From Methanotorris igneus Kol 5 (GTDB lineage: Archaea > AGJL01 > Methanococci > Methanococcales > Methanococcaceae), in assembly GCF_000214415.1 (NCBI RefSeq), contig NC_015562.1, positions 1,527,130-1,591,129 on the forward strand: a stretch of 64,000 nucleotides of DNA, read 5' to 3'. Under the pieces are notes generated by a model. That model ran no database searches. It had not been told where the DNA came from and was given only the letters and a program-made list of their open reading frames with translations. Position 1 is the first letter of the stretch. Every line of letters begins with the position of its first letter. The position numbers were made by a program, and so were the translations under genes. Of this stretch, positions 58,278-60,872 are shown one piece after another.

Positions 58278-60872
58278 ATGGAGTTAGCGGAAATGATTAA
58301 GAAAAAAGTTGAAAATACGGAGTTGCCACTTTCATTAAAAGAGGAATTGGTAAGCAAACTTGTAAAAGAGAACATAACGGATGAAAAAATTATTGATGAA
58401 ATTATTGAAGAGACAGTTAAAGCTTATAAGAGGACACTTGTTGAACCAGGGGAAGCTGTTGGGGTTGTTGCAGCACAGTCCATTGGTGAGCCAGGTACTC
58501 AGATGTCCTTGCCCTATGATGAGAAGATCGTAATTAAGGAAGGAGAGAACGTCAGATTAGTTGAGATCGGCAGATTTGTTGATGAATGCATAGAGAAATT
58601 TGGATTCGTTAAGCAGGGAGTTCATGAAATCTGCGATTTGCCAGTAGATGTCTACGCACTGAGCCTGGATCAGGACGAAAAAGTCCACTGGAAGAGAATT
58701 ACAAGCGTTATAAGGCACAGATTCAGCGGGAAACTCATAAGGATTAAGACGAGGTCTGGAAGAGTAATCACCGCAACTCCTTATCACTCGTTCGTCGTCA
58801 GGCAGAACAATAAAGTAGTGCCCATAGAGGGTAGAAAGCTCAAGGTTAGAGATAGGATTCCGGCGATAAGGTACATGCCATTGAACTGCATATCCGCAAT
58901 CGACCTAGCTGAGTTCGTCAGCTATCCAGTTTCTGGTGATTCAATAAAGCCGATCAACGGTAAGGTTATTGATAGAAAGCTCGAATTGGACTTCGACCTC
59001 GGATACTTCTTGGGTATATACCTAGCAGACGGCTATTCAACGAAATACTTCGTGTCGATCTCGAATACAAACAAGGAGGTCATCGAAATAGTCAGAAAGT
59101 TGGCGGAGAGACTTGGTATTAAGACGGCTGAATACGATAACCACAGCGGATTTTCAAAGAGTCATGACATAAGGTTGTACTCTTCAGTTCTAAGTGAGTT
59201 CGTCCAGAACTTTGGTAGTAATGCAGAGGAGAAGAAGATTCCAGACTTCGTGTTTAGCGCTGAGAAGGAGTTCGTCAGAGGTATATTGCAGGGTTATTTC
59301 GACGGAGACGGAAGTGTAAGCGTTGAAAGAAAGACGATTAGAGCGTTCTCATCATCCAAAGATCTGATAGACGAAATAGCCCTGTTACTAACAAGGTTCG
59401 GAATATTCTGCGTTAAGAGAAGGGTAAAGGGACAGTACGGAATCGAGATATCCTACAGGTACGCTAAGAGGTTTGCAGAGGAGATAGGTTCCTCCATTCC
59501 AGAAAAGGCTAGGAAGCTTGAGAAACTTGTTGAATCGCTGAAATCTAAAACCACGTACGATCTAATAGACGTGATCCCATCGATAGGTTCGGCACTTTTA
59601 GATGCCTCTAAAAAGCTCGGATATCCGTTGCACTACGCGAGGAAGTTTGTCAGAAAGCAGAAGATAGGAAGAACTACCTTGCAAAGGCATCTTACAAAAC
59701 TTGAAGAGCTCGCTAGAGCGAAAAACGTTGAATTGGAAGAGTTGAAGGTTCTTAGAAAAGCCGTAGAGAGTGATGTCATCTGGGATGAAATAGTATCGAT
59801 AGAGGAAGTCAACTACGATGGCTATGTCTATGATTTAAGCGTTGAAGGTCTGGAAACTTTCACGACGGCCGAAGGTTTGATCACACACAACACGATGAGA
59901 ACCTTCCACTATGCGGGAGTCGCGGAACTTAACGTTACTCTTGGTTTGCCAAGGATGATTGAGATTGTTGATGCGAGAAAGGAACCATCAACACCAATGA
60001 TGACAATTTATTTGGAGGAGGACTATAGATACGATAGGGCAAAAGCAGAGAAAGTCGCAAAGGAAATTGAGAGTACTACCGTCGATACAGTTTCCAAAAG
60101 TGTCAGTATTGATTTAATAAGGGAGTGTATAACCATTGAGTTGGATGAAGATAGGTTAAGGAGTAGGGATTTAACCATAGATGATGTTGTTGACGCAATT
60201 AAGAAAAAGTTGAAATTAAAAATTGAGGTTGATGGAAATAAGTTATATTTAAAAATAAAGAACCCATCTCTCAAAACTTTAAGAAAGAGATTGCCAAAAG
60301 TTAGGTCTGTGCAGTTGAAAGGAGTGCCAAATATTGAAAGGGTTATAATTAAAAAAGAAGGGGATGAATACGTTCTCTACAGTGAAGGTTCTAACTTGAA
60401 AGAGGTCTTTAAAATTGAGGGTGTAGATAAAACAAGAACTATAACAAACAACATTATAGAGATTCAGGAAGTTCTTGGAATTGAGGCAGCAAGGAATGCA
60501 ATTATAAATGAGATGAAATCAACCTTGGAAGAGCAGGGTCTTGATGTTGATATAAGGCACTTGATGCTTGTGGCAGATATTATGACAGCAGATGGGGAAG
60601 TTAAGCCAATAGGTAGGCATGGGGTCGGTGGAGAAAAAGCATCTGTCTTGGCGAGGGCGGCATTCGAGGAGACAGTTAAACATTTATATACTGCGGCGAT
60701 TAGGGGTTATAAAGATGAGTTGAAGGGAGTTATTGAAAACGTTATTGTAGGTAAGCCAATCTACTTAGGAACTGGGTGTGTTAAGTTGTATATTGATAGG
60801 GACTATGAAGAGGGTAAAAGTATAAATACTACTAACTTAAATAATAAGGTTGCCGAAGATAGAGATAATTAA
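58278..60872 (+). CDS. rpoA2: DNA-directed RNA polymerase subunit A'' precursor with intein
   Basis: An 864-residue precursor. Residues 1-76 and 539-864 are the C-terminal part of the largest subunit (jaw, trigger-loop and bridge regions): GEAVGVVAAQSIGEPGTQM, then TMRTFHYAGVAELNVTLGLP after the intein, and GGEKASVLARAAFEETVKHL near the end. The mature subunit would have 402 residues. The intein breaks the highly conserved GTQM-TMRTFH element, so splicing is needed for an active polymerase. ATG 58278 is chosen because GTG 58269 lies in the GGTGGG site. Confidence 0.95.
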   Translation: MELAEMIKKKVENTELPLSLKEELVSKLVKENITDEKIIDEIIEETVKAYKRTLVEPGEAVGVVAAQSIGEPGTQMSLPYDEKIVIKEGENVRLVEIGRFVDECIEKFGFVKQGVHEICDLPVDVYALSLDQDEKVHWKRITSVIRHRFSGKLIRIKTRSGRVITATPYHSFVVRQNNKVVPIEGRKLKVRDRIPAIRYMPLNCISAIDLAEFVSYPVSGDSIKPINGKVIDRKLELDFDLGYFLGIYLADGYSTKYFVSISNTNKEVIEIVRKLAERLGIKTAEYDNHSGFSKSHDIRLYSSVLSEFVQNFGSNAEEKKIPDFVFSAEKEFVRGILQGYFDGDGSVSVERKTIRAFSSSKDLIDEIALLLTRFGIFCVKRRVKGQYGIEISYRYAKRFAEEIGSSIPEKARKLEKLVESLKSKTTYDLIDVIPSIGSALLDASKKLGYPLHYARKFVRKQKIGRTTLQRHLTKLEELARAKNVELEELKVLRKAVESDVIWDEIVSIEEVNYDGYVYDLSVEGLETFTTAEGLITHNTMRTFHYAGVAELNVTLGLPRMIEIVDARKEPSTPMMTIYLEEDYRYDRAKAEKVAKEIESTTVDTVSKSVSIDLIRECITIELDEDRLRSRDLTIDDVVDAIKKKLKLKIEVDGNKLYLKIKNPSLKTLRKRLPKVRSVQLKGVPNIERVIIKKEGDEYVLYSEGSNLKEVFKIEGVDKTRTITNNIIEIQEVLGIEAARNAIINEMKSTLEEQGLDVDIRHLMLVADIMTADGEVKPIGRHGVGGEKASVLARAAFEETVKHLYTAAIRGYKDELKGVIENVIVGKPIYLGTGCVKLYIDRDYEEGKSINTTNLNNKVAEDRDN
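58506..59891 (+). mobile_element. Intein with LAGLIDADG homing endonuclease in RpoA''
   Basis: A 462-residue intein. It starts with Ser (SLPYDEKIVIKEGENVRLVE), has the block B motif VITATPYHSFVV with T-x-x-H, two LAGLIDADG motifs (LGYFLGIYLADG and GILQGYFDGDG) and ends with ETFTTAEGLITHN followed by Thr as the +1 residue. All expected splicing residues are present (Ser1, penultimate His, terminal Asn, Thr+1). Its codons (gac, gag, ctc, tcg, acg) are richer in G+C than the AT-rich host gene, a sign of arrival from another lineage. Confidence 0.93.

Follow-up and report, generated by a model that had tools for sequence, protein, structure and literature searches.

Horizontal acquisition of an Archaeoglobaceae-type RpoA'' intein by Methanotorris igneus and the mostly native composition of its flank

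Introduction

The rpoA2 gene of Methanotorris igneus Kol 5 (genome of 1,854,197 bp) is interrupted by an intein with GC-rich codons, and the shift in codon usage continues beyond the downstream splice junction. This raises the question of whether the flank preserves DNA that was copied from a donor together with the intein, or is a native part of the gene. Insertion of inteins at highly conserved sites is known, and two RNA polymerase A'' inteins, Mja rPol A'' and Nph rPol A'', have been published (both according to the accessible part of PMC1635734). Co-conversion of flanking sequence in intein homing is described for the mcm gene of Haloarchaea in the accessible part of PMC10643990. In this study, the M. 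igneus intein and both of its flanks were compared with those of Methanococcales and Archaeoglobi.

Results

Structure of the rpoA2 gene and its intein

Within the window (the whole stretch of DNA that was analysed, 64,000 nucleotides), rpoA2 with its in-frame intein was found on the forward strand at positions 58278-60872 by ORF translation and Pfam searches (Intein_splicing, 1e-24; LAGLIDADG_3, 8e-26; Hom_end, 1e-4; RNA_pol_Rpb1_5, 2e-50). The N-extein, delimited by sequence comparison and ending in SIGEPGTQM, spans positions 58278-58505, the intein 58506-59891, and the C-extein, including the stop codon, 59892-60872. The insertion point, between GEPGTQM and TMRTFHYAG, is presumably located in the trigger-loop codons of rpoA2. 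Class 1 inteins are defined by a nucleophile at position 1, TxxH in block B and a C-terminal His-Asn followed by Cys, Ser or Thr. All of these motifs are present in the 462-residue M. igneus intein (Ser1, TPYH in block B, and a C-terminal His-Asn before Thr+1; sequence SLPYDEKI...LITHN).

LAGLIDADG motifs and their acidic residues have well-known roles in endonuclease activity. Both motif regions of the M. igneus intein (positions 58983-59051, DLGYFLGIYLADGYS, and 59277-59345, GILQGYFDGDGSV; Pfam and alignment) contain the catalytic-type Asp, and these, with the LAGLIDADG_3 match, are the sequence features of a LAGLIDADG homing endonuclease. The second motif reads DGDG, where the inteins of AG036 (locus L009), AG056 and G003 have DGNG. 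The M. igneus intein also matches PI-PkoII (chain 2cw7) by sequence (E-value of 2e-32). Comparison with the AG036 intein gave a dN (0.089) far below dS (1.6), which indicates that both the splicing and the endonuclease parts are under constraint. Protein splicing would be expected from this ratio together with the essential nature of the host gene, and the motifs and the constraint suggest that the endonuclease may cleave DNA at the empty site.

Relatives and origin of the intein

A scan of GTDB contigs with the intein revealed nine loci. The top three are in Archaeoglobaceae MAGs (79–84% amino acid identity), a further locus from this family is incomplete (71%), and the Methanocaldococcaceae/Methanococci loci show 46–49% identity. 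The RpoA'' inteins of the Archaeoglobaceae MAGs L009, L010, L011 and L015 occupy the same site and are similar to that of M. igneus in composition; those of L009-L011 are 79–84% identical to it over the full length, with exteins only 56–58% identical. Close relatives of the intein were found in 6 of the 59 Archaeoglobi genomes, and in four of the class (G036, G037, G038 and G056) the intein lies at the same site, between GEPxTQM and TMRTF. Among Methanococcales, 36 genomes were searched and 33 contain the C-extein; 12 of these have an RpoA'' intein at this same position. A phylum-wide search from the M. igneus genome returned the same 36 genomes and nothing further. No relative was detected in IMG/VR with the intein as the query, and a viral carrier is thus unsupported.

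In the identity matrix, the inteins occupying this site in Methanococcales and Archaeoglobi are homologous to that of M. igneus along their full length, with 50–84% amino acid identity; this matrix and the intein tree were built without the frameshifted intein of G024 and the MAG loci JAADDS and JAJRSC. The AG036 intein is 84.4% identical to the M. igneus intein at the amino acid level and 79.0% at the nucleotide level, whereas the C-exteins share only 56.5% amino acid identity. For the sister species (G035, which we take to be M. formicicus) the values are 56.9% for the intein and 95.6% (89.7% at the nucleotide level) for the C-extein. In the intein tree, M. igneus, G003, AG036, AG037, AG038 and AG056 form one clade (support 100/100), and the AU test rejected both the grouping of the M. 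igneus and G035 inteins (p = 3e-40) and a single Methanococcales intein clade (p = 0.002). In the extein tree, in which 22 of the 27 intein-free Archaeoglobi are omitted, M. igneus and G035 are placed together (100/98).

Composition agrees with the intein tree. The first-pass annotation had described the intein as GC-rich in codon usage and unlike its host, and this proved correct: its GC3 is 0.51 (0.54 in the AG036 intein), whereas host ORFs average 0.25 and none of the 1,548 host windows of equal length (462 codons) exceeds 0.37. A foreign origin of the M. igneus intein, by horizontal acquisition from an Archaeoglobaceae-type lineage, is thus strongly supported, and a transfer between Archaeoglobaceae and Methanococcales lineages is clear. 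Its direction is read from the composition; the tree does not resolve the branching inside the Archaeoglobaceae-type clade. The intein adds a new member to the known rPol A'' allele, within this divergent clade. The published Mja rPol A'' intein (probably that of G004, which we take to be Methanocaldococcus jannaschii) shares with it the gene and the site (GEPGTQM/TMRTFHYAG), the splice-junction residues and a LAGLIDADG endonuclease, but is only 59% identical in amino acids and falls, together with the intein of the sister species, in the other clade.

Several other inteins deserve comment. In G024 (L072, reverse strand, about position 2735), the methanococcal-type RpoA'' intein has 1418 nt between the splice sites and loses its reading frame at an A-run that separates the endonuclease from the C-terminal splicing block. 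For an essential gene, such a break may reflect slippage or an error in sequencing, or may be a real lesion. Acidic LAGLIDADG residues or a part of the endonuclease have been lost in L081 and L078 (G014 and G008) and in L073-L076, which shows decay in the methanococcal clade; the copies of M. igneus and its sister look intact. Another intein-like segment of the M. igneus genome (L006; G000:C1:1248018-1248917) has a GC3 of 0.43, compared with 0.18–0.28 in the remaining six, and may likewise have arrived recently.

Codon usage and codon conservation beside the insertion site

The composition change extends past the splice site, as had been noted from the sequence, for about 17 codons. GC3 of these codons is 0.53, a value reached by 2.0% of 16,999 host windows of 17 codons. 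Their host-versus-Archaeoglobaceae codon log-ratio is 7.15–7.19, and at most one of 16,540 host windows reaches it (maximum 7.16). Codons 18-37 return to −6.6, confirming that host-like usage resumes near position 59945, and the 17 codons to the left are host-like (−3.8).

A rise at this place is found in many relatives. Relative to the remainder of the C-extein, GC3 of the right 17 codons is higher in 17 of the 19 intein-free Methanococcales and in all 13 other intein-bearing Methanococcales loci (among them JAADDS and JAJRSC, which appear to duplicate G008 and G009 exactly or almost so). The codon log-ratio of the right flank lies above its own background in 14 of 21 empty Methanococcales alleles and in 11/11 intein-bearing ones; for the empty alleles, this result is weaker than that obtained with GC3. 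When the background of each gene is subtracted, the M. igneus flank still scores highest among the 33 Methanococcales (11.3; the next scores 8.3), which counts against a native flank. Since GC3 is raised in intein-free genomes as well, most of the flank signal belongs to a segment of rpoA2 with conserved codons.

Codon choice at invariant residues supports this view. Its conservation peaks just to the right of the site in Methanococcales, intein-free ones included, and likewise in Archaeoglobi (31 genomes, 4 with the intein). The left 17 codons are ordinary in this respect (ranks 152/186, 154/183 and 107/186 in the three genome sets); in the order of G103 the test comprised two genomes only. 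With the right codons conserved and the left ones ordinary, the one-sided composition shift is largely a property of rpoA2.

At positions 59886-59950 and in the homologous Methanococcales codons, CAC is used in 31/31 genomes, GTT at V15 in 30/31 and GGG at G9 in 28/31. In Archaeoglobi, the codons to the right of the site are also conserved synonymously, in part as codons different from those of Methanococcales. Translation accuracy or a nucleotide-level element are candidate causes of this synonymous conservation.

Comparison of the flanks with the sister species and putative donors

The sister species has a different intein at the same site, and yet its rpoA2 is identical to that of M. igneus over the 48 bp left of the site (58458-58505) and at bases 28-75 to the right, gtcgcggaacttaac included. 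The first-pass annotation had read the right flank as a one-sided co-conversion tract of about 50 bp that might point to the donor, and had stated in advance that a flank matching rpoA2 of Methanococcales better than that of intein donors would speak to the contrary. This is what was observed. The right 51 bp of M. igneus differ from those of the sister at 4 positions and from those of four intein-bearing Archaeoglobaceae at 10–12 (three intein-free Archaeoglobi differ at 6, and the best Methanococcales genome besides the sister at 7). Across the 33 sites of bases 28-60, there are no differences from the sister and 7–11 from the intein-bearing Archaeoglobaceae, and no bases shared with the donors and absent from the relative, as co-conversion would leave, were found there.

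The same picture emerged from diagnostic sites, at which three donors agree against the Methanococcales majority. Of 18 such sites in the right 120 bp, 13 are host-like, 4 donor-like and 1 neither; on the left side, the counts are 17, 4 and 2. Codons 10-17 (59919-59942, beginning with gtcgcggaacttaac) encode the host residues ELN, where the nearest donors encode EID, and they are native. The transfer reading therefore held for the intein itself (84% amino acid identity to Archaeoglobaceae and the AU test) and failed for the 50-bp footprint, given the identity with the sister. Nor does the flank point to a donor: its first 42 bases have no match within 3 mismatches in 392 Halobacteriota genomes.

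The only stretch left for a conversion tract is codons 1-9 (59892-59918), where all four differences from the sister lie (positions 3, 12, 24 and 27), with none in the next 48 bp. A tract of at most 29 bp would bring in some of these bases if repair ended in the first stretch over which donor and host are nearly identical; this is possible because, with exteins only 56–58% identical, a short stretch of this kind is the only place where exchange would be expected to end. The Archaeoglobaceae donors do share G at position 3 and A at position 27, and the GGA codon occurs in 30/54 Archaeoglobi against 2/31 other Methanococcales. The profile log-ratio of codons 1-9 (2.62) leans towards Archaeoglobi and is matched in 2 of the 31 other Methanococcales, the sister scoring −5.13; this comparison covered 54 of 56 Archaeoglobi (G079, at a contig edge, and G039, split over contigs, were left out), and G019 and G023 were included only from this point on. 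However, positions 12 and 24 match neither the donors nor the sister, position 21 is host-like, and bases 1-23 are identical to the empty Methanococcales alleles of G034 and G007. The pair GCG GGA is found in no other of the 33 Methanococcales and in just one of 54 Archaeoglobi, which is intein-free. Moreover, four differences within 27 bp are ordinary for this species pair, as at least four occur in 106 of 318 such windows of the C-extein. On the sampled genomes, a short tract is regarded as rather unlikely, although it is the most probable of the alternatives.

Co-conversion in the sister species from a G004-like donor, with which it has 28 bp in common, was considered separately and dropped, since the intein-free G017 has the same 28 bp.

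Discussion

The reading that best accounts for these observations, with a probability of about 0.85, is that an intein of the Archaeoglobaceae lineage entered Methanotorris horizontally, that the raised GC3 of the flank is mostly native, and that the copied DNA amounts to at most 27–29 bp. The RpoA'' intein, full-length and equipped with a LAGLIDADG homing endonuclease, would have reached the Methanotorris lineage recently enough, judging from phylogeny and composition, for donor-like codon usage to persist, presumably by endonuclease-driven homing into conserved rpoA2 codons, while the sister species has the other, methanococcal, intein lineage at this site. The GC3 rise over about 50 bp would then mostly reflect a codon-conserved stretch of rpoA2 that is also seen in intein-free relatives; codons 10-17 probably predate the divergence from the sister species, and no more than the first 27–29 bp may have been copied along with the intein.

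A more elaborate scenario, which we put forward as speculation and consider rather improbable, is that competing homing endonucleases swap two intein lineages at the Methanotorris rpoA2 site, the latest arrival, derived from Archaeoglobaceae, having left a tract of up to 29 bp limited by short homology, at a nucleotide-conserved target. If true, such a target (codons −2 to about +20), kept without the intein, would explain cross-order homing by one endonuclease.

That Methanococcales inherited two ancient intein lineages vertically, with later loss and no recent transfer, is very improbable. A second Methanococcales genome (G003, which we take to be M. infernus) does contain an Archaeoglobaceae-type intein with a host-like GC3 of 0.22, which suggests an older arrival there, but the M. 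igneus intein is closer to those of Archaeoglobaceae (84%) than to that of G003 (74%), with exteins only 56% identical to the former, and its GC3 is still donor-like. Least credible is a full tract of about 50 bp from an unsampled donor, since the 17-codon score, although at the donor median (48% of donor windows score no higher), includes codons 10-17 that are identical in a sister with another intein and encode ELN, and the first 42 bp have no counterpart within 3 mismatches in the 392 genomes searched, so that the idea is contradicted unless the same event converted the sister flank before the sister intein was replaced.

Returning to the horizontal acquisition of the intein with a mostly native flank, the same copying of extein DNA beside a homing intein has been proposed for mcm of Haloarchaea; in the accessible part of PMC10643990, however, co-conversion is inferred from an amino acid change needed for splicing, whereas the M. 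igneus flank encodes host residues and lacks a donor flank match. In the open-licence literature searched, no description of an Archaeoglobaceae-Methanotorris RpoA'' intein transfer was found. The locus thus provides a well-supported case of RNA polymerase intein transfer between Archaeoglobaceae and Methanococcales, in which the sister species serves as a natural control. A further lesson is that GC3 can rise locally next to an intein because the gene segment is codon-conserved, and homing footprints should therefore be called only by comparison with relatives that have other alleles.
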